From Bacilli bacterium (lineage in GTDB: Bacteria; Bacillota_I; Bacilli_A; RF39; UBA660): a stretch of DNA of 46,522 bases. This document shows positions 3,004 to 24,813 of the stretch, piece after piece. Every line of letters starts with the position of its first letter. The first letter of the stretch is position 1. Where the stretch lies: contig JAAWGF010000011.1 of the NCBI GenBank assembly GCA_022795155.1, positions 1 to 46,522 of the forward strand. Direction: 5' to 3'. The position numbers were made by a program, and so were the translations under genes. A model generated the notes under the pieces. The model was not told where the DNA came from and ran no database searches. It saw nothing but the letters and a program-made list of their open reading frames with translations.

Positions 3004-3415
3004 GAAAATAGACTTAAGTCAAATAAATGAGTTACAAAAACTAGTTGCGAATTTTAATATTAAATTAAGAATAGAAGATTTAGAAAATAAAAATTCCTAT
3101 TATATAGGTTGTATAATTAATAATAGCTTAGTAGCTTTTTTAAATTATTGCGTTTATTATGAACGTGCGGAGGTTAATTATATTTTTGTAATGTCAGAAT
3201 ATCGTAGAAATAATATAGCTACAGAAATGTTACAATATATGCTGGTAAATATTAATAATCTAGATAATGTTACCTTAGAGGTGCGACAAAATAATTTCGC
3301 AGCTATTGAATTATATAAAAAGATAGGTTTTAAGGAATGTGCGATTAGAAAAAATTATTATGGCAAAGAGGACGCTATACTAATGTTAAAGGAACTTGGT
3401 GATAGTTATGAATGA
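2984..3415 (+). CDS. rimI: RimI-like GNAT N-acetyltransferase
   Basis: This is a 143-residue GNAT-fold acetyltransferase. The acetyl-CoA binding region is visible as YRRNNIATEMLQYML near residue 74, and the C-terminal NFAAIELYKKIGF is the typical GNAT motif B. RimI homologues commonly sit between tsaB and tsaD and may acetylate ribosomal protein S18 or other N-termini. The start is a TTG inside the tsaB 3' end, because no ATG lies near the beginning of the domain. The gene overlaps tsaD by 8 bases. RimI identity rests on position as much as on sequence. Confidence 0.85.
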   Translation: MNEKIIRKIDLSQINELQKLVANFNIKLRIEDLENKNSYYIGCIINNSLVAFLNYCVYYERAEVNYIFVMSEYRRNNIATEMLQYMLVNINNLDNVTLEVRQNNFAAIELYKKIGFKECAIRKNYYGKEDAILMLKELGDSYE

Positions 3416-10741: not shown

Positions 10742-11311
10742 TTACTTATTATTAATTTTATCAGAAAAACTAGTGTCGACTAATTTATTATATGGAACCT
10801 TTTCAGTTAATTCTCCAGCCGCTTCCATAATTTCCTCAATATGATTAAAGTCATCTTCATTTATATAAGTAGTATTAAACCAAGAGTCGTTTTGTTTATA
10901 TCTTTCAACAATTTTAGTTAGATCATTTAATGATATATCAGGAAAATGATTTAAAATATTTTTGGCAATATCTTCAGAAGAATGGTCATGAACATAGTCT
11001 AATCCTTTTTGGATAGCTCTTGTGAATTTTTCTATTACTTCTGGATTATTTTCAATATAACTCTTTTTAGCGCTATATGCTGTATATGGGACAACACCGC
11101 CTAGTTCTCCTAAAGATGCTACAACATATCCATAACCTTGTTGCTCAATTTGCAGTGCTTGAGGCTCAAATAGATTAACAAAGTCTCCAGTACCACCAAT
11201 GAATGCTCCAGACATCGCACCAAATGCAACGCTTGTATCAATAGTCAAGTCACTGTTTGGGTTAATACCATTTTCACGTAGTGCCCATTCAAATGTCATT
11301 TCAGGCATACC
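10742..11311 (-). pseudogene. ABC transporter substrate-binding protein, C-terminal part, split by the mobile element
   Basis: This is the C-terminal 189 codons of an NMT1/THI5-like periplasmic-binding-fold protein. Visible segments include GGMPEMTFEWALRENG, GAFIGGTGDFVNLFEP and PYTAYSAKKSYIENNPEVI. The frame continues into the element as far as 11374, but that extension encodes element sequence and has no ribosome-binding site. Joined to 24813-24379 it gives one continuous frame across RKG|GMPEM of about 334 residues, the normal family length. The product would bind the substrate of the 7134-8664 transporter. Confidence 0.9.
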
Positions 11312-11339
11312 ACCCCATCGGATACAAAACTTATAATGT
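11304..11339. other. attL of the serine-recombinase element
   Basis: The host half is GGCATACCACC, ending at 11314. The inner arm CATCGGATACAAAACTTATA begins at 11316. The reverse complement of the attR inner arm (24378 down to 24355) matches 18 of 24 positions of this arm. The presumed crossover dinucleotide CC (GG on the minus strand) is at 11313-11314. Confidence 0.85.
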
Positions 11340-11407
11340 AAAAAATGCTTATAAAATAAGGGAAGGTAAAACACATTAACAATAGTTTTTGTAAAAATGG
11401 TGAAAAA

Positions 11408-12208
11408 ATGGCAAAAAGTAAGTTAGGTATGTCTAGTTTTGATATAGACATCAAGTTTAAGAATAAAGAGGAAGCACGAAGATATGCGAAAAGAGTACTA
11501 GAAAAAATAAGGTATATATGTAAGAAAAAGAACTGGTCGGCAACAGCAATGGTATGTATTAGTAATACAAAAGGTAATAGCACCTATGTACATTATGAAC
11601 ATAATGGAAAAGTTGGTCGCCCTAGAAAGGTAAAAGAGGTACACCCGCATAAAAGTAATATAGAGGTAGATTGGCACTTACATATTATTATGGCATCAAA
11701 ACCTTGCCATTCATTTAGAGAAGAATTGAAAGCATATTTTGATAAAAATTGGCTAGGCTGGAAGAAGAACGCAAATATTGATATTTCTAAATTATATGGT
11801 AAAGGGACTTATAAAAAGAATACCAATATTAAGAAAGCAGAGTATTTTATGAACCAAGAAGATGAGTCATTATTTTGTACTTACAATAGTAAGGATGAGG
11901 TGGTTATTCCAGAAGGTTATACATTGAAAGATTTATATAATGCTTATATCAATAGTAAAACAGCATTAAGATATGCAAGGAGTACAGGCAACGAGAAAAG
12001 ATTAGCATTAGAAGATAAGTATAATGATATAGTAAACTTTTATTGGACCATAACAAAGGAACAAGATAAAAAAATGGTTGATAAGTTTATGAAACAAGCA
12101 CAGTTAATTAAGATACAAGATAACTACGATTTGATGGAGAAAAATAATAAAGTACAGGAAAATATGAGTTTACACCGAAGAATTGTAGCAGAAGATAGCT
12201 TATTTTAA
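11408..12208 (+). CDS. Putative HUH-type replication or mobilisation protein
   Basis: The 266-residue protein is basic. It contains His90-Leu-His92 within VDWHLHIIM, resembling the metal-binding HUH motif of rolling-circle Rep proteins and relaxases. Tyr146 lies in KKAEYFMNQ, about 55 residues downstream, where a nucleophilic tyrosine is expected in single-Tyr Rep proteins. It is the first gene inside attL, a usual place for an element's replication initiator. The start ATG 11408 follows GGTGA. I cannot assign it to a named Rep family. A DNA-binding role is inferred from the two motifs only. Confidence 0.5.
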   Translation: MAKSKLGMSSFDIDIKFKNKEEARRYAKRVLEKIRYICKKKNWSATAMVCISNTKGNSTYVHYEHNGKVGRPRKVKEVHPHKSNIEVDWHLHIIMASKPCHSFREELKAYFDKNWLGWKKNANIDISKLYGKGTYKKNTNIKKAEYFMNQEDESLFCTYNSKDEVVIPEGYTLKDLYNAYINSKTALRYARSTGNEKRLALEDKYNDIVNFYWTITKEQDKKMVDKFMKQAQLIKIQDNYDLMEKNNKVQENMSLHRRIVAEDSLF

Positions 12209-12450
12209 AAGGAATTAAGTAAAAAAGTATTAGTAATTATTACTCTCATATAATATACACATATATAATACTATTTTGATATTAGAATGATATATATAAT
12301 AGGACTAGATTAAGAAGATATAAAGTAATATGAGGAGTATATATTGATATTAGATTTAGGGGTAATGATAGTATTGTTAGAAATGAAAAGCAGTATAGTT
12401 CAAAGTGAAATAAAATGCTATACATTTAAATCATATATAGCATTACAAGT
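12209..12450. other. AT-rich gene-free stretch with a direct repeat
   Basis: No gene is visible. TTGATATTAGA occurs twice in the same orientation (12276-12286 and 12344-12354, 68 bases apart). The stretch lies directly after the Rep-like gene, so an origin function is conceivable but unsupported. The right end holds the terminator of the XRE gene. Confidence 0.35.
12406..12444 (-). terminator. Terminator of the XRE regulator gene
   Basis: AATGCTATA (12414-12422) and TATAGCATT (12436-12444) form a perfect 9-base stem. On the minus strand a T-rich tail follows it. It lies 7 bases beyond the stop codon of the regulator gene. Confidence 0.7.
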
Positions 12451-12780
12451 TTAAATTTCCTTTAAACCATCAATATAGCCCTCTACTTTTGCTTTATTAG
12501 TAGTAGATAGTGAATTGATTTTATTTAATAGGATAAAATCAGTATCGGAAATATTATTAGGTTTTACATCATCAATAGGTATATTGTATTTAGTTCTACA
12601 AAGTAAATAATCAATAGAAGTATTGTAGTAGTCAGCAAGTTTAATAAGCATATCGGAACTTGGGAACACTCTACCAGTTTCATAAGAAGATATAGTTTCT
12701 TGGGTAATATTTAAATCCATAGCAACTTTTGTTTGTAGTAAGTTTTTAGAGTTTCGTATTTGCTTTAAATTATTTTCCAT
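12451..12780 (-). CDS. XRE-family helix-turn-helix regulator
   Basis: The 109-residue protein starts with a Cro/C1-type helix-turn-helix at residues 4-60. Recognition-helix residues lie in TQETISSYETGR, followed by PSSDMLIKLADYYNTSIDYLL. The C-terminal 45 residues may mediate dimerisation. The start is preceded by GAGGAGGGCGAT on the minus strand. It is transcribed divergently from the DUF4268-type nuclease gene, so the 122-base gap probably holds shared operators. It is likely the element's maintenance or lysogeny-like repressor. Confidence 0.9.
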   Translation of the reverse strand: MENNLKQIRNSKNLLQTKVAMDLNITQETISSYETGRVFPSSDMLIKLADYYNTSIDYLLCRTKYNIPIDDVKPNNISDTDFILLNKINSLSTTNKAKVEGYIDGLKEI

Positions 12781-12874
12781 ATATATCGCCCTCCTCTATA
12801 TATAATTGTAAAGATATTAAAAATTAGTGATAGTAATATTAGTTATATTTATATGCCTGAAATTATATAAAATG

Positions 12875-12895
12875 TGTTATAATGATATTGGTGAT
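12875..12895 (+). promoter_or_regulatory. Extended -10 and ribosome-binding site before the DUF4268-type gene
   Basis: TGT-TATAAT occupies 12875-12883 and GGTGAT occupies 12890-12895. The start codon follows at 12903. Transcription should start close to the ribosome-binding site. Confidence 0.55.
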
Positions 12896-12902
12896 TTTAT
12901 AT

Positions 12903-13805
12903 ATGGAACTTGGAAAATTAGAAAAAATAGAATTAAGAGAAGTTTGGAGGCATGAAGCATTGGATTTTACAAGGTGGTTAGCTAGAAAAGAAAATATTGC
13001 TTTGCTAAGTAAGGAGGTAGGCATTGATATTAAGGTTATAGAAACAGAAATGAGTGTTGGAAGGTATAATGTTGATATTTATGCAAGAGATACAGAAAGT
13101 AATAAAAGAATAGTTATTGAAAACCAATTAGAAAATACTAACCACGACCATTTAGGGAAATTGTTAGTATATGCTGCTGGTTTAGATGCCGATATTGCTA
13201 TATGGGTAGTAAAAGATGTGAATGAAGAACATAGACAAGCAGTTGAATGGTTAAACGATAATAGTTTTGAAAAGATAAATATATTTTTAGTAAAAGTGGA
13301 ATTGTGGCAAATAGATAATTCTCCTATTGCTCCTAAGTTTCAAGTAATATGTGAACCCAATAATTGGGCGAAAGTATTAAAACAGCAATCAAAAGATAAT
13401 ATAAGCGATTTAGAATTAAAGCAAATGGAATATTGGCAAGGGTTTGTTGATTATGCTAAAAGTAAAGATAAAATATATATTAGTCAACGACCATCAATTT
13501 ATAATTGGTATGTTATTCGCATTGGCTCAAGCGATTATAAAATTAAATTAGTTCATAGTGTTAATAGTGATATGATAAGGTGTCAATTAGAAATGTTTAA
13601 TGATGATATTTATAAAAAATTGGAACAATACAAAAATGAAATTGATAATAAGATAAATGGCTTAGAGTGGGAATATTTAGAAGATAGAAAAGTTAATAGA
13701 ATTAGTTGTAGTAATAATAGTAAAGATAATGATAGTTCCTATGTATGGTTATTAGATATGGTTGATAAATTTAAAGAGGTATTCCTAGAATATTTGTATA
13801 AGTAA
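12903..13805 (+). CDS. DUF4268-type protein with PD-(D/E)XK-like nuclease domain
   Basis: The protein has 300 residues. The N-terminal half carries the conserved set REVWRHEALDFTRWLA, Asp58 in NVDIYARD and Glu73-x-Gln75 in IVIENQLE, followed by NHDHLGKLLVYAAGLDADI. This is the D...ExQ variant of the PD-(D/E)XK nuclease core, as I recall it from DUF4268 proteins. The C-terminal half would be the DUF4268 part itself. Relatives often lie in restriction or defence neighbourhoods. Start ATG 12903 has GGTGAT upstream; a frame extension to ATG 12882 lacks one. The protein should be cytoplasmic. Confidence 0.75.
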   Translation: MELGKLEKIELREVWRHEALDFTRWLARKENIALLSKEVGIDIKVIETEMSVGRYNVDIYARDTESNKRIVIENQLENTNHDHLGKLLVYAAGLDADIAIWVVKDVNEEHRQAVEWLNDNSFEKINIFLVKVELWQIDNSPIAPKFQVICEPNNWAKVLKQQSKDNISDLELKQMEYWQGFVDYAKSKDKIYISQRPSIYNWYVIRIGSSDYKIKLVHSVNSDMIRCQLEMFNDDIYKKLEQYKNEIDNKINGLEWEYLEDRKVNRISCSNNSKDNDSSYVWLLDMVDKFKEVFLEYLYK

Positions 13806-13881
13806 GTTTAACGGCGATATTAGGTAAGTTTGTCAGAGACAATATAAATATATTGAGTTAATGAAAAAAAAGTAATAATGC

Positions 13882-13890
13882 TGGGATAAT
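13882..13890 (+). promoter_or_regulatory. Possible extended -10 promoter of the macro-kinase-PHP operon
   Basis: TGG-GATAAT lies in the 155-base gap before the macro-domain gene. A weak -35 candidate (TTGAGT, 13853-13858) is spaced too far away to be convincing. No terminator is obvious after 13805, so readthrough from the DUF4268-type gene is also possible. Confidence 0.3.
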
Positions 13891-13960
13891 CGGCGAAATA
13901 AAGAGGAATAAGTAGATGTTTTATAGAAATTTAATATATAACTAAGTTAGGCGGTATGTT

Positions 13961-14470
13961 ATGGGTAGATTAAATATAGTAAGTGGAAACATATTAGAGC
14001 ATTTAAAAGATAAAGATTTAATAGTAAATAGTGCTAATCAGTATATGATTTGTGGTAGTGGTGTTTGTGGCGCTATATATAAGAAAGCGAATAAAAAATT
14101 GTTAGAAGATTATTGTAAAAAACATTTTAAAGATAATATGAGAGTTAATGAGGTAAGATTTACACCTGGTTTTGATTTAGGAATAGATATGTTACACATT
14201 TATTGCCCTAAGTATTATGAAAGTAAATATCCTTTACAAGATTTATTAGAAAGTTATAATAACATATTCCTTTCGGCAAAGAAAAAAGGTTATAAAAGTA
14301 TTGTATCAGTTAGTTTAGGTACTGGGATACACGGTTATAAACATAATGGTATAGCAAAAGATATAGTTGTTAGGTTAAATGAATTAGTAAAAGAATATGA
14401 TATTGATTTTACATTGGTATTGCCAAGTGAAAAAACAACGGAAATATATAGTAGTTTTCTAGAAGAATAA
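13961..14470 (+). CDS. Macro-domain protein (ADP-ribose binding or hydrolysis)
   Basis: This is a 169-residue, single-domain macro protein. The adenosine and ribose binding loops are visible: DLIVNSANQ (residues 19-27), the glycine-rich CGSGVCGAIYKKA (31-43) and SLGTGIHGYKH (118-128), which matches the second phosphate loop. Macro domains bind or remove ADP-ribose from proteins, nucleic acids or small molecules; the substrate here is unknown. The ATG follows AGGCGG. The gene is 35 bases upstream of the kinase gene and probably forms one operon with it and the PHP-ATPase gene. Confidence 0.85.
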   Translation: MGRLNIVSGNILEHLKDKDLIVNSANQYMICGSGVCGAIYKKANKKLLEDYCKKHFKDNMRVNEVRFTPGFDLGIDMLHIYCPKYYESKYPLQDLLESYNNIFLSAKKKGYKSIVSVSLGTGIHGYKHNGIAKDIVVRLNELVKEYDIDFTLVLPSEKTTEIYSSFLEE

Positions 14471-14505
14471 AGGTTTTTATAGTATAATATTTATTGGTGG
14501 TACTT

Positions 14506-15996
14506 ATGGTAGAAAGCATAGATATAGCATTAGCAAATATTTTATATGATGAAATAAATAATTATAATTTTTCAAAGTTATATACAGATATATATAGTAA
14601 TTATGATGAGAGATTAAAATACATTTTTTCTTATTTACACCAAAATCTTAATGAACTTATAAACTTTATGAATGATAAGAGTAAATCGAATAGTCATTAT
14701 AATGCGAATGAAAGTCGAGAATTATTATTTATTATAGAAACTATTCGAGAATTACAAGCAATGCTTAAAAATACTAATCTAGATTTTAGTCTGAATGGTG
14801 ATTATGAAAGGTTTTTAGAATATTCCGAGACATTTCTATCATCATCGGGTGGTAGTGAAATTCCAAATGATTATAAAAGATTTACAATAATTAAATATGA
14901 ACCTATTTTTAAAATGAATAATGATGTAATTATAACGAACAATATAAGCATTACTAACTTTAAAACTAAATTAATTGGTAATGGAGCTTATGCTAATGTT
15001 CTTTTATATACTGATGAATTTTATAATGAAAAATTTGCTATAAAGAGATTAACAAGCAATGTTAGCGATAAAGAAAAAGCAAGATTTAAAAATGAATTTG
15101 AAATAATGAGTAAAATAAAACATCCTTATATATTAAAAGTTTATACTTACAACGAAAAAGATAATAGTTATATAATGGAATATTGTGATTTTACATTAAG
15201 AAAATATATTGAAATAAATAATAATAAATCGGACTTTGATATTAAAAAGCGAAAAAAAATAGCAATACAATTTTTGGCGGCACTAAATTATTTGCATTCT
15301 AAAAAAATTTTACATAGGGATATTAGTTATAATAATGTTTTGATAAAATTATACGATAATAATATTTTGATACTGAAATTGTCAGATTTCGGTTTAGTTA
15401 AAGACTTGGATTTAGAATTAACAAGAACCGAATCTGAGATTAGAGGAACTTTAATTGATGATACATTGACTAGTTTTAAAGATTATAATGTAAAAAATGA
15501 AATATATAGTGTTGGTATGATTCTTTACTTTATTTTTACGGGAAGAACGCATCTAAAAGCTGATGATAGTAATATTTATAATATAGTTTCTAAATGTATA
15601 GATAGAGATTTACAAAAAAGATATAATAATATAAGTGAAATTATAATAGATGTACAAAAAATTGGAAATATTGAAAGTAATACAAATGAGATTAGTACTG
15701 ATTTTATAAGTGAAAAAGCAAAAAAAATATTATTTAGTTGTATTGATAAAGATGGCTTTATGTACACAGAAAATTCAAAGTATAAACAAGAATTTATTTG
15801 TGGCACATTGAAATTAAATTTTGGTGAAATATCTATAAGAGAAAAAGCCGAATGGATTAGTGCCATAGAAGAATTAGAGAAAAAAGGTTATATAGTTGGT
15901 CATAAAGAAAATTCTAGTTTTTATGATGATGATTTTGATAATACTTATGAAGTTATGAAAAAAGGATTTGATTATTATGATAAACATAATAATTAA
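14506..15996 (+). CDS. Ser/Thr protein kinase with extra N- and C-terminal domains
   Basis: The 496-residue protein contains a complete Hanks-type kinase core. The Gly-rich loop is GNGAYANV (158-165), the catalytic Lys is in FAIKR (about 182), the catalytic loop is [10 protein letters not shown] (about 270) and DFG is near 294. The APE region is poorly kept. About 150 residues before the core are mainly helical and unassigned. The last 110 residues ([11 protein letters not shown]... to [13 protein letters not shown]) look like a winged-helix domain often attached to defence or signalling proteins. There is no membrane segment, unlike the housekeeping PrkC/PASTA kinases. Start ATG 14506 follows GGTGG. 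TATAAT at 14483-14488 could give a second promoter. Confidence 0.88.
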
Positions 15997-16019
15997 TAAA
16001 TAGATATGCGAGGTATAAG

Positions 16020-18545
16020 ATGGGATATATTAAAGCAAATTATGAATTAGCAACAATGTATAAACAAATAATTGAAGAAAAAAAGAAGTTTGGTAAATAT
16101 CATAAAACTATATTTCATTTACATACTCCTGCTTCTCACGATTTTAGATTATTAAATCATCCTGAATATACAAATTATTATAAAGAGTGTAGCGATGATG
16201 AAATATATAGTTATGCTAAAAATGAATTGCCAATGTTAGAAAGATTTAGTTTTAATTTTGAAAAGAATGATGATATAAAAATTTTTAATTCAAAGAAAGA
16301 ATTTTTGGCATATTTATTAATTGCAAAGAAATTGGCTGATAACAATATTGAAATAGTTTTAGTAACAGATCATAATAATATTAATGGTTATCAAAAACTG
16401 CTACAAGCAATTAAAATTTTGAACAATACAATAAAGCAAAATACATATACAGAACTTATTATGGGTATAGAAATTAGTTGTGCTGATAAAAATCATGTTG
16501 TTGGTATTTTTAATGATAAGAATATTAATGTAAATAAAAAAATTAATCAATGGTTAAAAGAATATATAATGAATGAAGAAGAAGGGACATATTTAACTAG
16601 TTTGGAGGTTATTAAACAAATTGATGAATGGAAAGGAATACCCTACATCGCCCACTTTGATAATTCAGATTTCTTTAAGGATTCTAAATTTTTAAATATT
16701 GCTTATAAGAAAAAGTTATTTAGTTTAGAAAATTTATGCGTTATTGGTCTTGCTACCAAAGAACATTTAGTAAAAATTTCAAATAGAATAAAAGATTATT
16801 CTGATAAAGACTTTTGCTATGTTATAGATGAAGATTCACATTCATTAGAAGAGATAGGAAAAAATATTTTTTGGTTAAAAGGAAACAATAGAAACTATAA
16901 TATGATTGCAAGTGCTTTAAGAGATTATAATATTTGTATAGAACATAATGTTCCACATGTTCCCCAAAAATATATTAAAGGACTAGTTATTAGAAATAAT
17001 GGAAAAGGTTTTTTGAAAGGAAAAAATAATAAAGATTTTTGTATATCATTTTCAGAATATTTAAATTGTTTTATCGGTGGAAGAGGCACAGGGAAAAGTA
17101 CTATTATTAATATTATTGAATACACTATCCAGCAGTCGGTAAAAAATGAAAAAATGTTAGATTTAATTTGTAAGCATAGTTCTATTTGGCTACTTTTTGA
17201 AATAAATAATCGAGAGTATATGATACAATTATATAATCCACAAAAGGAATATGAAGATGACAATATTTTAAAATATTTTAGTCCATATAGCCCAAAATAT
17301 AATTATAAATATAAGTTTTATAATGAACAAATAAAACAATTTTTATTAGAGAGATGTATAACAGTTTATGAAATTAAAGAAAGGAAAGGAATTTTATACA
17401 GTAAACCAGTCAATAATAAAAGAAAGTATTTAGATGATGTATTTAGCACAGCATATTCTATAAATGAATTAGTTGAAACTTCAAATGGTAATGAAATAAA
17501 TGATTATATTTATAATACCTTATTTAAAAATAAAACATTATCATCTGTAAAAAATACTATACGCATTAAATCTATTAATGGATTAAAGAAAAAATTACAA
17601 GAAGTTTCTAGCATTAAGGATTTAAGAAAAAAAGAAGTAGAAGAGGTTGTAACTAAATTTAATGATAGCCAAAAAGGAATACTACGAATTATTTATAGAC
17701 AAGAAGAGAATAATTTAAATATTTTGAATATAAGGGAATTAATTTCAAGAAAATATCCTATAAAGGATAATTATTATTATAAAAAGAAAAACATTTCTAC
17801 TTTAAGCATAGTAGATTATTTAGAAGGACTTAATGATAAACTTGGATTAGAGAAAATGTTATTATTATTTATTAACAATAGTTATGAAGAATTAGAAGGG
17901 ACTATGTCTATAAAAAAAATTTTAGAAGAAAAAAGTCAAAAATTAATTGATAAACAAATTGAATTTATCAAAGATGATGAAATATTAAAGGTTGTAGAAT
18001 CAATTGCTAAAGATATTATAAATAATGATAATATTCCTACAATAGTTGATAGTTTAAGAAAATATATAAAAGAAATTGAAAGTTTTGATTTAGAATTCAA
18101 TATAAATAATAAAGAGCAAAAAGAACAAAAAATAATATATAAGAGTGTTAGAGACCTTTCTCTAGGGCAAAAGGTTGTTGCCATGTTGTCATTTGTTTTA
18201 GGATTTAGTGACTTTTCTGGTGATTATAGCCCTTTAGTTATAGACCAGCCAGAAGATAATTTAGATAATCAATATATTTATAAAAATTTGGTGCAAAAAT
18301 TAAAGGAAATAAAATCAAAAAGACAAATAATTATTGCAACCCATAATGCTACTATTGTTACAAATGCTAAAGCCGAGCAAGTAATCATAATGGAATCTGA
18401 TAATATTAATGGTTGGATAAAAACAACGGGATATCCAAATGAAAAAAATATTAAAACACATATTATTAACTATCTTGAAGGTGGAATAGAATCTTTCAAA
18501 CATAAGTATTTTATATATAAAGAAGTAATAGATTCTGAAAAATAA
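16020..18545 (+). CDS. PHP-domain phosphoesterase fused to SMC/ABC-type ATPase (Ppl/TrlF-like)
   Basis: The protein has 841 residues. The N-terminal PHP metallo-phosphoesterase domain keeps all metal ligands: H33-x-H35, D117-H118, E151, H212 and D272-x-H274. The ATPase part has Walker [10 protein letters not shown] (353-361), then a long helical stretch, signature RDLSLGQKV near 712, Walker [12 protein letters not shown] near 740 and the switch histidine ATHN. The architecture matches, from memory, the stand-alone anti-phage Ppl proteins and the NCBI-named TrlF family. It may cleave nucleic acid or nucleotides once its ATPase senses a target; this is inference. Start ATG 16020 follows GCGAGG, 23 bases after the kinase stop. 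Confidence 0.85.
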
Positions 18546-18573
18546 ACTTGTATTAAAAAAGTGTAGGTTTATA

Positions 18574-18608
18574 AAGATTTAATTTGATTATGAATTAAGT
18601 CTTTTTTT
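18574..18608 (+). terminator. Terminator of the macro-kinase-PHP operon
   Basis: AAGATTTAATT (18574-18584) pairs with AATTAAGTCTT (18593-18603), with one G-U pair, and T7 follows. It lies 29 bases after the PHP-ATPase stop and marks the operon end. Confidence 0.8.
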
Positions 18609-18736
18609 GTATTGTTAAAGGTTGTTTATTGATTTTTTAAATATTTGGGAATTTTTACGACATTTTTAAAGAAAACGGCTCGTATCTTTTGTAAAAGTCA
18701 TATATTATATATTTTATGGTAAGGAGGTGTCATAAA

Positions 18737-18967
18737 ATGCAAGAGGAAATATTAAAAAAGTTAATAACCTTAATAAGTGAAGATTATATTGAAACATTAT
18801 TGACTGGTATTAAAGAATACGAAAAGGATTTTCCTTATACTATTGCTTGTGCTAACTTTATAAGTGAATTAAAAAGTAAAAATATAGTAGTTAATTTTTA
18901 TAATACATTTGATATTAGCATTATAGATATGATTTATAGGGAAACAAGTAATTATTTGGCGAGGTAG
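18737..18967 (+). CDS. Small protein of unknown function upstream of the resolvase
   Basis: I do not recognise this 76-residue, helical, acidic-to-neutral protein (MQEEILKKLITLISEDY...). The start at ATG 18737 is fixed by AAGGAGGTG at 18721-18729; an in-frame ATG at 18716 lies before that site. It ends 9 bases before the resolvase gene, so the two are probably co-transcribed and it may be an accessory factor. No membrane segment or known motif is visible. Confidence 0.6.
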   Translation: MQEEILKKLITLISEDYIETLLTGIKEYEKDFPYTIACANFISELKSKNIVVNFYNTFDISIIDMIYRETSNYLAR

Positions 18968-18976
18968 GTTTAAGGT

Positions 18977-19582
18977 ATGGAGAGTAAAACATTTGGCTAT
19001 GGTAGAGTTAGTAGCAAAGAACAAAACGAAGAAAGACAATTAGTAGCATTTAGAGAATATGGAATTGATGAAAGAGATATTTATATTGATAAGCAAAGTG
19101 GTAAAGATTTTAACAGAGAAAACTACATTACATTAAAGCATATATTAAGAGAAAGCGATTTATTAATTATTAAGAGCATAGATAGACTAGGAAGAAATTA
19201 CTCACAGATTATTGAGGAGTGGCAAGATATAACTAAAAATATTAAAGCAGATATATTTGTTATTGATATGCCATTACTAGATACTAGGAAGAATAAAGAT
19301 TTACTTGGTACATTTATTAGTGATTTAGTATTACAAATATTAAGTTATGTCGCTGAACAAGAAAGAACCTTTATAAAACAAAGACAAAGCGAGGGCATAG
19401 ATATAGCATTAAAAAATGGTACTAAAAGTGGTAAACCTTTTGGAAGACCTAGAATAGAAAAACCACAAGATTTTGACATTGTGGTTAGTCGTTGGAAAAA
19501 TAAAGAGATTAAAAGTAAAGAGGCAATGGAATTATTAGGGTTAAAACCTAATACTTTTTATAATATGGTTCATTTGTCATAA
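18977..19582 (+). CDS. Small serine recombinase of the resolvase/invertase family
   Basis: The 201-residue protein has the catalytic Ser12 in YGRVSSKEQNEERQ. Conserved downstream segments are KSIDRLGRNY near residue 68 and the E-helix ending in EQERTFIKQRQSEGI. A Hin-type helix-turn-helix lies at the C terminus (KSKEAMELLGLKPNTFYNM). It would catalyse resolution or inversion at local sites rather than integration. It is separate from the large recombinase at 21704-23266. Its 3' end overlaps the convergent 19570-20460 gene by 13 bases. Confidence 0.9.
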   Translation: MESKTFGYGRVSSKEQNEERQLVAFREYGIDERDIYIDKQSGKDFNRENYITLKHILRESDLLIIKSIDRLGRNYSQIIEEWQDITKNIKADIFVIDMPLLDTRKNKDLLGTFISDLVLQILSYVAEQERTFIKQRQSEGIDIALKNGTKSGKPFGRPRIEKPQDFDIVVSRWKNKEIKSKEAMELLGLKPNTFYNMVHLS

Positions 19583-20460
19583 TCAGGAAATGGATGAATA
19601 CTTTCATAGTTATTGATAAAATCAATTAGTATGTTTAAATCACCAGTTTTTAAATACTTAATTTTCTCTAAATCTCTTTCTTTTTTATATCTATTTTTGT
19701 AATTTTCTTTTTTAGTTCCATCTGGCATATCGTTTATTTTTTTCAAAAACTCTCTATTTATACTTTCAACTTTTGATTTATAATTATAGTTTTTTTGCAT
19801 TTTAGCGGCAATTTCACTACAAGTAAGTTCTTTATTATCATAAATTTTTACCCTTCCACAATAATGAGTATCCGACTTGTCGGCTACATAGTATTTATCG
19901 CATAAATCACATTTTTTGATATAAAATTTTCGCCTTGTAGAAAATAAACAATTCATAAAAGATAATAATAATTCTATTTCAGTATTAAAATATACTGTTT
20001 TTTTATTTACTATATAAAAATTTTCTTGTAAGTGGAGTAATGATTTTACCTTATCCTTTTTATTTATAGGAAATAAAGGTTTGTCTTTGCTTTTCGTGAT
20101 TTGATTATCTAAAAATTCATCTTTATATAAATTTAAGTTGATACCTTTCCCATTACGACCAACTTTTATATGTATATCATCATAATTATCATTTGTAATA
20201 AATTGCTCTTTTATTGGTGGTAAAACTATTTTGGAAGTCGTTAGATAATATAACCAAACTCGATTATCAATAAAACCAGAATTAAAGTTTTTTGCATATT
20301 CATATATGTTGTCTAATAAATCTTTTGTTTCGTTTGATAATGCTTTAAATATATCTTCAAAACCAATAGTATATGTAAGACCGTGAGCAACTATAGAGAT
20401 AGTACCTTTATTATTTATCGCCTCATAAAAATTAAAATAATTAGAATAATTAAAGTTCAT
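19570..20460 (-). CDS. Zinc-finger-containing protein, possibly DUF6076-like
   Basis: The 296-residue protein has a treble-clef-like cysteine cluster near residues 184-215 (CDLCDKYYVA, HYCGR, TCSEIAAKM), followed by a charged helical region. This pattern recalls DUF6076 proteins carried by integrative elements, but I cannot confirm the family. The start is supported by a GGGAGGA-type site on the minus strand just upstream. It is the only minus-strand gene between the resolvase and the recombinase cluster. Its function is unknown; a nucleic-acid-binding role is an inference from the cluster. Confidence 0.65.
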   Translation of the reverse strand: MNFNYSNYFNFYEAINNKGTISIVAHGLTYTIGFEDIFKALSNETKDLLDNIYEYAKNFNSGFIDNRVWLYYLTTSKIVLPPIKEQFITNDNYDDIHIKVGRNGKGINLNLYKDEFLDNQITKSKDKPLFPINKKDKVKSLLHLQENFYIVNKKTVYFNTEIELLLSFMNCLFSTRRKFYIKKCDLCDKYYVADKSDTHYCGRVKIYDNKELTCSEIAAKMQKNYNYKSKVESINREFLKKINDMPDGTKKENYKNRYKKERDLEKIKYLKTGDLNILIDFINNYESIHPFPDYDK

Positions 20461-20620
20461 ATTTCCTCCCTGAGTTAATATCGAAATGTTATTTTAAAAT
20501 CATTTCTTTTTCTTTTGATGTATCTTATCATAATATTTGCTACAATGCAATCAGTCAAGGGGAAATTGTAATATTAAATGTCTGCAGCAGTTAACTTGAC
20601 AAAATAGGGAGGAATTAAAA

Positions 20621-21031
20621 ATGACAAAAAAATTAAAAAAAGAAAAAGTTTTAATTTATGCATTATATGATGAACAAATATATGATATAGATTATAACGA
20701 ATTGATGAATTTAAGTAGTGATAGGGAGGAAGAATTAAAAAGTTATTGTGAAACTGCAAATTATGAAATTATTAACATAACCAGAGAACTAAAAAGCAGT
20801 TTATTAACATATAACTTTGAACGTTTTTTAGAAAGTTTATATAACTATTCCACAAAGTATGCTTTTGGTTATGATTATCCAAAGATAAATAGGGTTATAC
20901 TTTATGATATATTTGATTTGTGTAGAAACAAAAATCAAATAAAAGCATTGCGTGAAATTCTTGATGATGAAGGAATTGTATTAGAAACTATAAAACAAGA
21001 AAGTTTGGAGATGTTTGAGTATGAGCAGTAA
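20621..21031 (+). CDS. Degenerate resolvase-fold protein, first of a pair
   Basis: The 136-residue protein follows the course of a serine-recombinase catalytic domain: a first strand (KVLIYALYDE), then the helix REEELKSYCETANYEIINI, a region matching the 'RPxFxxLLxdi' part (FERFLESLYNY), and strands VILYDIFDL and GIVLETI. The R-x-S catalytic signature is absent (ALYDEQ in its place), and there is no DNA-binding domain. It may therefore act as an accessory or directionality subunit for the large recombinase; this is inference. The start follows GGGAGGA. It overlaps the next gene by 11 bases. Confidence 0.6.
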   Translation: MTKKLKKEKVLIYALYDEQIYDIDYNELMNLSSDREEELKSYCETANYEIINITRELKSSLLTYNFERFLESLYNYSTKYAFGYDYPKINRVILYDIFDLCRNKNQIKALREILDDEGIVLETIKQESLEMFEYEQ

Positions 21032-21497
21032 TAGACAAGAAGCAAAACAAAAAAAGAAAGCAGCCTTATATATTAAATATGAAGAAACTGATTATGATGA
21101 ATTAAAGAAAAAGGAAGAAATATTAATCAAATATTGCGAAGAAAACAACTTTACTATTGTAAAAAAATATTTTGATAGCGAGGGTTGTTGTGCACCATAT
21201 TTTTCAAACACTATGAGAGATTTTTTAAGAAACATAGGGAATAGAGAATATGATTATTTAATCACTTGTGATATCAATGATTTAACAGAATATCTTTGTC
21301 AATTAGTAGCAATCAATGCAATACTTGATGATGAAGATACAGAGATAATAACGATAAACCAAGGTATTTTGGGAAAAGATATGCTACTTGATGGTACTTA
21401 TTTTGAAAATGTAATGAACAAAAAGGAATTACAAGAACCAAGGGTACAATATGATGAAAGTGGCAAAGTTATTGATATAAAAGAATTACCATTTTAG
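21021..21497 (+). CDS. Degenerate resolvase-fold protein, second of a pair
   Basis: This protein of 158 residues also resembles only the catalytic domain of a serine recombinase. It has AALYIKYEETD where active enzymes have ALYIRLSREDG, so the serine is lost. The helix with KYCEENNFTIVKKYFDSEG matches the usual 'EY..DGYTGSN' turn, and YDYLITCDINDLTEY takes the place of 'ittkdlsRmgR'. The C-terminal tail shows no DNA-binding domain. I start at ATG 21021, inside the end of the previous gene, with GGAG at 21007-21010. The pair is transcribed toward the active recombinase. Confidence 0.65.
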   Translation: MSSNRQEAKQKKKAALYIKYEETDYDELKKKEEILIKYCEENNFTIVKKYFDSEGCCAPYFSNTMRDFLRNIGNREYDYLITCDINDLTEYLCQLVAINAILDDEDTEIITINQGILGKDMLLDGTYFENVMNKKELQEPRVQYDESGKVIDIKELPF

Positions 21498-21550
21498 GTC
21501 TATAAGTATTATAGATTTAATAAAATCATACATTTAATTAGGTGATATGA

Positions 21551-21655
21551 ATGAAAATAGTTAATGTTTTCAATAATAATGGGAAAACACTACAAGAGAT
21601 TATAGAGCAGTTTCTTATTGATTACTGTTTGGAGATTGGTTCTTTTAAGAAATAA
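21551..21655 (+). CDS. 34-residue ORF directly upstream of the large recombinase
   Basis: The short frame encodes MKIVNVFNNNGKTLQEIIEQ and 14 further residues ending in SFKK. It has a clear site, AGGTGAT, 5-10 bases upstream. From memory, similar 'VNVFNNNGKTLQE' peptides precede recombinase genes in other Firmicute elements, which would support a real gene. Its role is unknown; an excisionase-like or regulatory role is a guess. Confidence 0.55.
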   Translation: MKIVNVFNNNGKTLQEIIEQFLIDYCLEIGSFKK

Positions 21656-21703
21656 TACTATAATATAATTGTTAATGTGTTTTACCAAGAAAGGAGTGAA
21701 AAT

Positions 21704-23266
21704 TTGAAAGGTAAGACATATAAAACCGCTTTGTATATTAGGTTATCGAGAGAAGATGGCGACAATATGGAAAGTGAAAGCATTAAAAATCAAAGAGATT
21801 TATTGCAAATGTTCTTAGAACAAACAGAGGAAAAACTTCTTTTTGTAGAGGAATATGTTGATGATGGCTATACTGGTTCTAATTTTAACAGACCTGCTTG
21901 GCAAAAACTATTAACAGATATTGATAGTGGAAAGATAAATACAATTATTACGAAAGATTTATCTCGTATGGGTAGAGATTATATCTCAATGGGGGAATAT
22001 ATTGAAAGAATATTCCCCGAACGAGGTATAAGATATATTGCTTTAAATGATGATATAGATACATTATACGAAACACCAGGATTAGAATTTTTACAATTTA
22101 AGTTAATGTTTAACGATTACTATTTAAAAGACACATCAAAAAAGATAAGAAAAATAGTAAAAGCAAAAAAAGAAAAAGGACAATTTCTAGGGTGGAAAGC
22201 AGTATATGGCTATAAAAAAGATCCTAACGATAAACATAAAATAATTGTAGATGAGGAAGTTAGACCTATTATTGAAAGAATGTTTAACCTAGTAATAGAT
22301 GGTAAAAGTCCAAGACAAATAGCAAATACATTTTCCGATGAGCATATTCCAACACCTAGCGTTTATGCTAATCTAAATAGAGGTATGAAATCCACAGCAT
22401 ATGAATTATGGTGTCCTAGAACTATTGAAGAAATGCTTACAAATGAAACATATATAGGAAATCTTACACAAGGAAGAAGAAGAAAATTAAACTATAAATC
22501 TAAGAAAGAAATTAGAACACCTAAAGAAGAATGGATAATAACTGAAAATACCCACGAGGCGATTATTGATAAAAAGGTATTTAATACAGTCCAAGACTTA
22601 TTAAAAAAGAATAAGAATAAACCAACTGGCAATAATATTCAATTACTTTCTGGCTTTATGGTATGCAAAGAATGTGGACACGCAATAGGAATAAATAAAA
22701 GTAGCGATGGCAAAAGAAAATATTGTTGTTGTACTTATTATATTTCACATAGTAAATATGGCTTATGTACCCCACATAGTTGTAATTATGATAAGTTGGA
22801 AAATGCTATATTAGAAGAAATTAAAAAAATGTGTACTGAATATCTAGATAGTAGCACATTTAAAGATAAAGTAGATGAAGCAAAAAAGAAGAATGACATT
22901 AAGGTTAAATTACAAAAGGAAATAAACATGTTAGATAGAAAGGTTAGTAGTCGTCTATCTTACATTGATAAAATATATGAAGATAAGTTAAAGGGCGACA
23001 TTGATATAGAAATGTTTAATCGTTTAACTATCAAATATAAAGAAGAAATAGAACAATGGAAAAGCAAGAAATCGGAAGTAGAATTAGAACTGAATAATAT
23101 TGATAAAGAAGATACTAATAAAGAAAAAGAAGAAACACTAAAAAAGATAAACGAATATTTATCTTTTGAAAAACCAAGTAGAAATCTATTAGTAAATTTA
23201 ATTGATAAGATACTTATTAGTGAAGATAAGACAGTAGAAATACATTATAAGTTTAAACTAGCATAG
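21704..23266 (+). CDS. Large serine recombinase, integrase of the element
   Basis: The protein has about 520 residues. The catalytic domain holds Ser15 in TALYIRLSREDG and the segment KDLSRMGRDY near residue 88. The Recombinase domain follows (KGQFLGWKAVYGYKKD... RQIANTFSDEHIPTPS). Next is a zinc ribbon (CKECGHAIG, with paired cysteines at KYCCCTYY and LCTPHSC), then a coiled coil (about 400-490). It should cut at a central dinucleotide and join attP to attB, here within the binding-protein gene. I start at TTG 21704 because AGGAG lies at 21692-21696; a GTG 27 bases earlier precedes that site. Confidence 0.95.
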   Translation: MKGKTYKTALYIRLSREDGDNMESESIKNQRDLLQMFLEQTEEKLLFVEEYVDDGYTGSNFNRPAWQKLLTDIDSGKINTIITKDLSRMGRDYISMGEYIERIFPERGIRYIALNDDIDTLYETPGLEFLQFKLMFNDYYLKDTSKKIRKIVKAKKEKGQFLGWKAVYGYKKDPNDKHKIIVDEEVRPIIERMFNLVIDGKSPRQIANTFSDEHIPTPSVYANLNRGMKSTAYELWCPRTIEEMLTNETYIGNLTQGRRRKLNYKSKKEIRTPKEEWIITENTHEAIIDKKVFNTVQDLLKKNKNKPTGNNIQLLSGFMVCKECGHAIGINKSSDGKRKYCCCTYYISHSKYGLCTPHSCNYDKLENAILEEIKKMCTEYLDSSTFKDKVDEAKKKNDIKVKLQKEINMLDRKVSSRLSYIDKIYEDKLKGDIDIEMFNRLTIKYKEEIEQWKSKKSEVELELNNIDKEDTNKEKEETLKKINEYLSFEKPSRNLLVNLIDKILISEDKTVEIHYKFKLA

Positions 23267-23286
23267 TATATTAAAATATTAATATA

Positions 23287-23295
23287 TGATATAAT
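23287..23295 (+). promoter_or_regulatory. Extended -10 promoter before the dual-nuclease gene
   Basis: TGA-TATAAT lies 16 bases before the ATG at 23312, with AGGTGG between them. The gene can thus be expressed independently of the recombinase. Confidence 0.5.
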
Positions 23296-23311
23296 ATCAC
23301 TAGGTGGTATT

Positions 23312-24352
23312 ATGGAAACAATAGAATTATCAAAGGAAAATCAAAGTTATATTAAACCTGTAGCATTTGAACATTTTTTAATGGCATTATTTAAACAATT
23401 AGGTTATGAAGTAGAATATCGAAAAAGAGTTAAAGATAGTTATATTGATATGGAACTGACATATAAAAAATCCCATAAAAAAGAAAAATATATATGTGAA
23501 ATAAAATTTTATTCAAAACTTTATTTTTCACCTAGTTCTATAGTTTATAGTATTATGGAATTATCAAATGTTATAAAAGTAGGTGAAACAGGATTACTAA
23601 TAACAAATGCAATATGCACACCGCAATGTAAACAAGAAGCATTAGACAAGGGAATAATTATCTTAGATATAGCAAATTTACTATATTTAATACAACCAAA
23701 TAATGATTTATATCAGAAATTTTTGGAATTATTAGATTTTTCGGTTGCTAAAATTTCTCCAAAATCTCCCTCAATACCTTTTGATTTTGCAGGAAAGATT
23801 TTTGAAGATGAGAATACTAAAATTAATTGGGCTCAAAAATTTGAAGATATTAAACCTGGAAAAAGCCAATTTGCAAAATATGAAAAAGTTTGCGTGGAAG
23901 CATTAAAACTATTATTTTCAGATTATTTAAGTGTCTGGGAGGAACAACAAAAATCAAATGATGATTTATATCGTTTTGATTTGATTTGCAAAATTAAAAA
24001 TGATGTAAATGATGATTTTTTTAGTACATTAAATAATTACTTTAATACTAGATATATTATCTTTGATTTTAAAAATTACAAAGAGCAGATTACTCAAAAA
24101 GAAATATATACAACAGAAAAATACCTTTATGATAAGGCATTAAGAAAAGTTGCTATTATTATTTCTAGGAATGGTATAAATAAAAATGCATTAAAAGCAA
24201 TCAAAGGAAGTCTAAGAGAACAAGGGAAGGTTATTTTAACTTTAACAGATTATGATATTTTAGCGATGATAAATATGTATTATAAAGGTGATAATCCAAC
24301 AGATTACTTATCAATGAAATTAGATAAATTACTAATAGAATTAGAAAAATAA
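23312..24352 (+). CDS. Protein with two PD-(D/E)XK-like domains (Mrr-type N terminus)
   Basis: The 346-residue protein begins with an Mrr-like restriction-endonuclease domain: FEHFLMALFKQLGYEVEYRKR, Asp46 in SYIDMEL and Glu63-x-Lys65 in CEIKFYSK, then GLLITNAICTPQCKQEALDKGIIILD. Residues 185-320 seem to repeat the fold, with Asp223 in RFDLICKIK and Asp252-Phe-Lys254 in FDFKNY. Its stop codon lies 2 bases before the attR inner arm, so it is cargo at the very edge of the element. A role in defence against foreign DNA is plausible but not shown. Confidence 0.65.
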   Translation: METIELSKENQSYIKPVAFEHFLMALFKQLGYEVEYRKRVKDSYIDMELTYKKSHKKEKYICEIKFYSKLYFSPSSIVYSIMELSNVIKVGETGLLITNAICTPQCKQEALDKGIIILDIANLLYLIQPNNDLYQKFLELLDFSVAKISPKSPSIPFDFAGKIFEDENTKINWAQKFEDIKPGKSQFAKYEKVCVEALKLLFSDYLSVWEEQQKSNDDLYRFDLICKIKNDVNDDFFSTLNNYFNTRYIIFDFKNYKEQITQKEIYTTEKYLYDKALRKVAIIISRNGINKNALKAIKGSLREQGKVILTLTDYDILAMINMYYKGDNPTDYLSMKLDKLLIELEK

Positions 24353-24354
24353 AT

Positions 24355-24393
24355 TTATCATAAGTTTAATACCCGATGACCTTTTCTGCCCCC
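24355..24393. other. attR of the serine-recombinase element
   Basis: The inner arm occupies 24355-24378; read on the minus strand it begins CATCGGGTATTAAACTTAT and mirrors the attL arm. The shared ACC lies at 24379-24381. The host half TTTTCTGCCCCC follows. In the reconstructed attP the two arms flank ACCC, whose centre is CC. Confidence 0.85.
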
Positions 24394-24813
24394 AATAACA
24401 GTTTTACCAATCATATCATTTAAAGTAAAATTATCGTATTTTTCTCTTGAAACAATAAAACTTCCATCTCTTTTAGTAAGCGCCGAGAAATTAACTAAAT
24501 AGTCGCTTTCTCCTTGATTATAGACATAAATAGTCGCTTCACTTCCAGCAAAACCGATTTGAACATCTCCAGATAATACTGCAGCTGTTACTTTATCAGC
24601 ACCTGAAGTTAAAATAATTTCAACATCTAATCCTTCTTCTTCAAAATATCCTAAAGAATCAGCGATATACTGTGGTGCATAAAAAATACTATGAGCTACC
24701 TCTGCAACGCTTACTTGGGTTAATTTATCATCTTTTTTAAATATACTAGGAATAAAAATAATACCAAGAATAATTAAAATACCAACTAGAGAAAAAATTA
24801 TCTTTTTCATCAT
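24379..24813 (-). pseudogene. ABC transporter substrate-binding protein, N-terminal part, split by the mobile element
   Basis: These 145 host codons start with a hydrophobic N-terminal anchor (residues 5-24). No lipobox cysteine is present, so the protein would be held by an uncleaved membrane segment. The binding-fold segments AHSIFYAPQYIADSLGYFEEEGLDVEI (read in two parts), SGDVQIGFAGSEA and GKTVIGGRKG follow. The frame continues seven codons into the element and stops at 24358. GGGAGGAG precedes the ATG. TATAAT is visible further upstream on the minus strand. I looked for a TPP riboswitch upstream and saw none, so thiamine-precursor specificity is unproven. Confidence 0.9.

Follow-up and report, generated by a model that had tools for sequence, protein, structure and literature searches.

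An active large serine recombinase (LSR) of an RF39 bacterium is preceded by two overlapping genes for proteins that lack the catalytic residues of serine recombinases (dead proteins) and are predicted to adopt the fold of their catalytic domain. Together with a divergently oriented gene for a DUF6076-like protein these genes form a cassette which, as comparison of related loci indicates, is real, is exchangeable as a block between near-identical elements and evolves under purifying selection, with the dead genes kept as proteins. The initial annotation had proposed that the dead proteins act as a recombination directionality factor (RDF) that joins the synaptic tetramer; this claim is disfavoured by the present analysis and the dead proteins are probably not the direction switch of the neighbouring LSR. 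By analogy, a control module that regulates the element is a possible, if tentative, role of the cassette.

The carrier element and its genes

The window, i.e. the whole stretch of 46,522 nucleotides of contig JAAWGF010000011.1 that was analysed, contains the following features:

10742..11308, minus strand: C-terminal half of an interrupted NMT1/THI5-like substrate-binding protein gene
11315..24375, no strand: LSR element carrying the cassette, approximate extent, ~13 kb, flanked by the two halves of the host gene
18977..19582, plus strand: small active serine resolvase, 201 aa, PF00239 80.3 bits, left border of the cassette
19570..20460, minus strand: DUF6076-like protein, 296 aa, C-x2-C...C zinc-ribbon-like motif, PF19553 29.1 bits (cut-off 23.5), divergent neighbour in the cassette
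19574..21470, no strand: exchangeable block, replaced between the window and locus L155
20621..21031, plus strand: ORF1 (P1, P0001), dead serine recombinase-fold protein 1, 136 aa, ribosome-binding-like AGGGAGG upstream
21021..21497, plus strand: ORF2 (P2, P0002), dead serine recombinase-fold protein 2, 158 aa, C-terminal -ELPF
21551..21655, plus strand: mini-ORF, 34 aa, MKIVNVFNNNGKTLQEIIEQFLIDYCLEIGSFKK, conserved upstream of the neighbour LSR's family with or without dead genes
21677..23266, plus strand: P0003, active TndX-like LSR, true start perhaps TTG 21704 with AGGAG before it
24379..24813, minus strand: N-terminal half of the interrupted NMT1/THI5-like gene

The ends of the element bear short inverted arms of the AAACTTAT type. 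Its gene order is a rep-like gene (our own label for a gene without family match), an XRE regulator, DUF4268/PDC-S11, macro domain, kinase, PHP-ATPase, an 83-aa gene, the small resolvase, the DUF6076-like gene on the minus strand, P1, P2, the mini-ORF, the LSR and an Mrr-like nuclease. PDC-S11, kinase, PHP-ATPase and Mrr-like nuclease constitute defence-like cargo within the ~13-kb element. The NMT1/THI5-like gene is the place of insertion in many relatives too. P0003 shows 33.8% identity over 97% to records annotated as TndX.

Two tandem ORFs overlapping by 11 bases had been described and are found as such, the P1 stop codon (21029-21031) lying downstream of the P2 ATG at 21021, within the last codons of ORF1; ALYDEQ and LYIKYEETD occur in the ORFs as stated. 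The dead genes are read in the same direction as the mini-ORF and the integrase, which makes co-expression plausible, and a terminator-like site was not found between the dead genes and the LSR.

Serine recombinase domains without an active site

The relation of P1 and P2 to resolvases is beyond chance as judged from their mutual similarity, a search of 395 genomes, a profile of active domains and the predicted structures. The two proteins are paralogues (31% identity, E 3e-7). Among the 395 genomes searched, 16 besides the own genome encode longer serine recombinases whose N-terminal part is matched by P0002 (best E 1.8e-6). P2 is also recovered at E 1.9e-10 by a profile built from 39 active domains, which does not reach P1 at a limit of 1e-4. 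Against PF00239, P0002 scores 16.6 bits (E 0.0087), below the curated cut-off of 23.3, as do the dead proteins of locus L069 and L076b, likewise with 16.6 bits; the Pfam scan gave no match to this family for P0001. The profile of the dead family matches the sequence of 3bvp weakly (E 0.0063). No match of P0002 was found in the plasmids or phages searched, and no confirmed relative of P0001 and P0002 in the viral contigs searched.

AlphaFold2 models of P1 (pLDDT 78.8, pTM 0.74) and P2 (pLDDT 77.8, pTM 0.75) were built from nine sequences, all of the dead family and none of an active enzyme. Foldseek ranked serine recombinases at the top for both models (P1, E 1.2e-4; P2, E 6.9e-7), and in VIA the P1 model reached Z 13.2 to 3guv (3.1 A, 116 residues) and the P2 model Z 14.2 to 6dgc_A (1.9 A, 107 residues) and 3bvp_A (2.5 A, 117 residues). 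The catalytic-domain plan assumed by the initial annotation is therefore what the models return for P1 and P2, each taken alone.

The proposed loss of the catalytic serine is borne out by the alignment with 39 active domains, in which none of the eight dead sequences has a serine in the nucleophile column (D,E,D,K,N,D,N,D). Arginine is absent from the Arg-8 column in all eight, the Arg-96 column holds Asp or Glu in 8/8, and in the Arg-99 column a single sequence, namely P1, retains arginine. We take the latter two columns to be R68 and R71 in gamma-delta numbering, the active-site arginines presumably being R8, R68 and R71. As the 39 active domains had been selected by their S and R motifs, their 39/39 at these positions is circular and only columns outside the motifs are independent; further columns that are almost invariant in active enzymes are mostly lost in the dead proteins too.

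In active serine recombinases a long helix after the core builds dimer and tetramer. After the last core strand, the P1 model has one helix of 7 residues and the P2 model no helix of at least 4 residues; as the tails of both models are of low pLDDT, the missing long helix is suggestive only. Nor was a DNA-binding domain detected in P1 or P2 by Pfam, and 136 and 158 aa leave scant space for one after the core, in agreement with what had been claimed. By comparison, P1 and P2 are thus shown to be serine recombinase catalytic domains that lack the catalytic residues and a DNA-binding domain and, as modelled, the long dimer helix.

With respect to the origin of the dead domains, their profile was scored against the six PF00239 matches listed for their own genome. 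Four LSR genes on other contigs, one of them cut to 220 aa, obtained 53.6, 34.6, 21.6 and 14.1 bits, the small resolvase -0.2 bits and the neighbour LSR -11.8 bits. In BLAST, all eight dead proteins matched one of those four other LSRs best, at 21-30% identity, with weak matches for L076a (E 0.13) and L076b (E 0.09). Since the scores favour the other LSRs over the neighbour, the dead domains do not look like copies of the neighbour LSR.

Occurrence beside the integrase

The LSR, used to scan genome contigs, yielded 80 loci, of which 31 with an LSR identity of at least 55% were read on their upstream side (L093, where the start of the LSR is missing, was left out). Intact dead genes were located upstream of the LSR in seven of these (L068, L069, L073, L074, L076, L085 and L086), on the same strand in 7/7. 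As L068 is identical to the window, being its own record or a copy, six further loci remain. At 23 of the 31 loci no dead gene was found. The remaining locus, L072, holds a relic (172-813): a natural deletion has joined the element's first gene, the rep-like one, to the terminal part of a dead gene; the LSR of this locus is intact. Two dead genes are present in the window and L076 and one in the remaining cassettes, so the pair is not universal. As the dead family occurs upstream of an active LSR in six further loci, the initial annotation passes the test of linkage to recombinases elsewhere that it had set itself. A third ORF of 96 aa (L076:5529-5819), unrelated-looking and also ending in -PF, follows the two dead genes of L076.

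In L091, L092 and L094 the cassette slot is empty, the small resolvase directly preceding the LSR region. In 16/31 loci, the LSR is preceded at a distance of 158-302 bases by the C-terminal half of the host gene; those with both halves within reach are small elements of ~3 to 6.4 kb.

Among 1096 ORFs of 80-320 aa in 81 sources (the window and the 80 loci), 23 matched the catalytic domain. The serine pattern is absent in 14 of these, comprising 12 of the dead family, a number that counts both the window and L068 and includes L072, and one each in L098 and L099. The latter two (L098:1205-1813; L099:5797-6405) encode a 202-aa protein upstream of a TndX-like LSR in Clostridia, in which a DUF6075 piece is fused to a recombinase domain with serine absent from the usual place and two arginines kept.

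A profile of four dead proteins recovered the dead family in 5/386 host-family genomes, each time beside the LSR and once as the relic, and profile searches of 386 and 295 genomes, partly the same, showed the dead family only beside the neighbour LSR's family. The serine motif, whole or in part, is present in all 17 regions with short-frame hits that were examined except L166; in L170 the pattern is missing only because the ORF begins within the motif. The weaker profile hits examined were active or truncated LSRs, again with the exception of L166. L166 (genome G073) encodes a 126-aa dead resolvase-like protein (3008-3388, minus strand) in an ICE-like region, next to SSB-like and sortase-like genes as labelled by eye, and no LSR was seen in the 7 kb read. 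With DUF6076 as the anchor, matches occurred in 4/296 genomes, the own genome included, and no LSR was recognised by eye in the 10-12 kb around the other three. An open-access literature search found no paper on such a cassette, which proves no absence.

Block exchange and selection

The element of the window and that of L155 consist of pieces 93.4-94.5% identical along their length except for positions 19574-21470, which cover the DUF6076-like and dead genes; L155 lacks the Mrr-like gene as well. In steps of 200 bases, identity amounts to 84-98% outside versus 54-63% inside the block, and a single step at its left edge stands at 74%. L073 and L074 are 98-100% identical on both sides of the block and 83-94% inside. 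LSRs that are 97% identical (dN 0.014) face dead proteins that are only 28-32% identical and differ in number. A DUF6076-like homologue accompanies the dead gene in 6/6 cassettes compared, and this homology indicates that the two kinds of gene move together. Distances among DUF6076-like and among dead proteins do not covary significantly (Spearman 0.27, p 0.34, 15 pairs), which does not favour tight pairing.

The eight intact dead ORFs share 23-42% identity (77% for one pair), and the dead genes of L073 and L074 show a dN/dS of 0.33 (NG86) or 0.16 (YN00). In the LSR tree, a clade of 23 (support 94/93) unites three cassette lineages and a 16-member clade without intact cassette, to which the relic-bearing L072 belongs; the outgroup is without cassette. 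One gain with later loss and exchange inside the clade would be the simplest reading of this history. The tree of the dead proteins separates, with some uncertainty (91/92; short rows, long branches), P2, L076b and L069 from P1, L076a, L086, L073 and L074, so a duplicated dead pair may have been kept in the window and L076. Had the small resolvase exchanged the cassette site-specifically, flanking repeats might be expected; a search for them gave only weak AT-rich matches.

Most cassettes close with a gene whose product ends in -PF (KELPF, KGLPF, EDTPF, EAPF; PY in L086), and the relic L072 has the same -PF codons. Classic SSB tips end in -PF as well. Mimicry of an SSB tail was considered and rejected, since the host SSB ends in DDNFLD (L185:1501-1974) instead of the usual -PF tip, and since the homology of the window and L155 resumes inside the last codons, so that the ending may be a junction effect.

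A mini-ORF as steadier companion of the LSR

An ORF of 31-41 aa, MKIVNVFNENGKTLQQI-like, ends shortly before the LSR. Its pattern is found at 29/86 LSR genes, all 29 within the 37 with at least 55% identity, counts that are partly double as the window equals L068 and L152-L155 repeat genome-contig loci; in L086 the mini-ORF is present with a changed residue and was missed by the pattern. Found in cassette-bearing and cassette-less loci and with a dN/dS of 0.155 over 16 loci, this tiny conserved protein appears to be the steadier companion of the LSR family and a better candidate partner than the dead genes, testable in a simple excision assay.

What the cassette may do

As an RDF, the dead proteins would contact the LSR, within the tetramer or outside it, and turn it towards excision; this is an unlikely reading. 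It would fit that RDFs are encoded by the element near the integrase, as are the dead genes on the same strand upstream of the LSR in all seven intact cassettes, that known RDFs are diverse, and, hypothetically, that elements without dead genes might excise poorly. Against this stand the contrast between 97%-identical LSRs and 28-32%-identical dead proteins and the missing dead gene at 23/31 LSR loci: as the neighbour LSR stays unchanged while the cassette is swapped, the dead proteins are probably not its direction switch. In addition, the dead profile scores 14-54 bits with the four other LSR genes and -11.8 with the neighbour, the models show no long helix (in low-confidence tails), and the mini-ORF is the steadier companion. 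That an RDF is kept with its cognate integrase is our own expectation and no formal definition; the cassette is not kept in this way. In the excerpted text of a review, the related Tn4451 enzyme is reported to integrate and to excise without need for an RDF, and for serine-integrase IMEs none was known at the time of that review (PMC5704250).

The better fit of the dead profile to the four other LSRs of the same genome than to the neighbour, the block exchange with high divergence of the dead proteins and the defence-like neighbouring cargo would be expected if the dead domains stemmed from the integrase lineage used by rival elements or phages and served as decoys, contacting those integrases and poisoning integration or excision of the competitors, the swapping reflecting a race with changing targets. 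This we regard as improbable, as the similarity to other LSRs is weak (21-30%) and may reflect ancestry only, a missing long helix would hamper pairing with rival integrases as well, and dN/dS indicates constraint and not positive selection. It is similarly doubtful that decoy recombinase subunits and the DUF6076-like protein constitute an exchangeable immunity- or exclusion-like cassette against competitors or a second copy, whose specificity would shift as the block is exchanged. Alternatively, the dead genes could form an accessory two-gene system with the DUF6076-like protein, a toxin-antitoxin or defence system simply parked beside the integrase, in line with an element rich in defence-like genes and the empty slot in L091, L092 and L094. 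This, too, we regard as improbable: PADLOC matched the DUF6076-like protein and P0001 weakly (E 0.004-0.005) and P0002 not at all, and in 386 and 295 genomes the dead family occurs only beside the neighbour LSR's family, with one distant dead protein in the ICE-like region. Decaying LSR remnants are very unlikely: catalytic residues are lost and L072 is a real deletion relic, but eight ORFs are intact at 23-42% identity (77% for one pair), dN/dS is 0.16-0.33, the fold is conserved and the dead pair is kept in two elements.

Of these readings, we tentatively prefer the exchangeable control module, in which the dead proteins and the DUF6076-like protein would regulate the element. Persisting dead enzyme domains are often regulators, and those considered here may act by protein-protein contact and not by recombination. 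The divergent pair beside the integrase would regulate the expression or the activity of the element's recombinases, and the module might differ between elements so that co-resident copies avoid cross-talk, being exchanged as a block from its place between small resolvase and integrase. The dead proteins are not obligatory for the integrase, because a whole integrase clade lives without them. We know of no DNA-binding role of DUF6076, and no paper naming it was found in the open-access literature searched. Given the defence-like genes on the same element, the cassette might itself be cargo and not a control module. In either case, a swapped unit beside an almost unchanged integrase provides natural variants for testing control, exclusion or rivalry by dead recombinase domains.

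Comparison with known systems

The core fold of the dead proteins is like that of solved serine recombinases of PF00239 (TP901-1 integrase, 3bvp; IS607-type TnpA, 6dgc; 3guv), from which they differ by the absence of the catalytic serine, the replacement of the active-site arginines with acidic residues at one position, the absence of a DNA-binding domain and a long helix that is not predicted. A predicted inactive serine recombinase is also known in vaccinia virus F16, as listed in an excerpt of PMC11980589 (reference Senkevich 2011); likened here by description and not by sequence, F16 differs as an animal-virus protein targeted to nucleoli with no known tie to an integrase.

In temperate phages, immunity regions are swapped. 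Similarly, a divergent gene pair is exchanged here as a block near the integrase, and the immunity-like reading is drawn from this exchange together with the divergent arrangement and the position next to the integrase. Unlike phage immunity regions, the cassette block contains no Cro/CI-like regulators, and regulation is proposed by analogy.

The active neighbour P0003 is TndX-like and thus resembles the TnpX/TndX-type LSRs of Tn4451 and Tn5397, for which the excerpted review mentions no dead companion (PMC5704250). Like the RDFs of the phiC31 family, which act on the integrase, the dead proteins are small and element-encoded. According to the excerpt of PMC11530663, however, phiC31-family RDFs are 61-85% identical and their integrases 24-43%; the cassette shows the reverse, with integrases far more alike than the dead proteins beside them.
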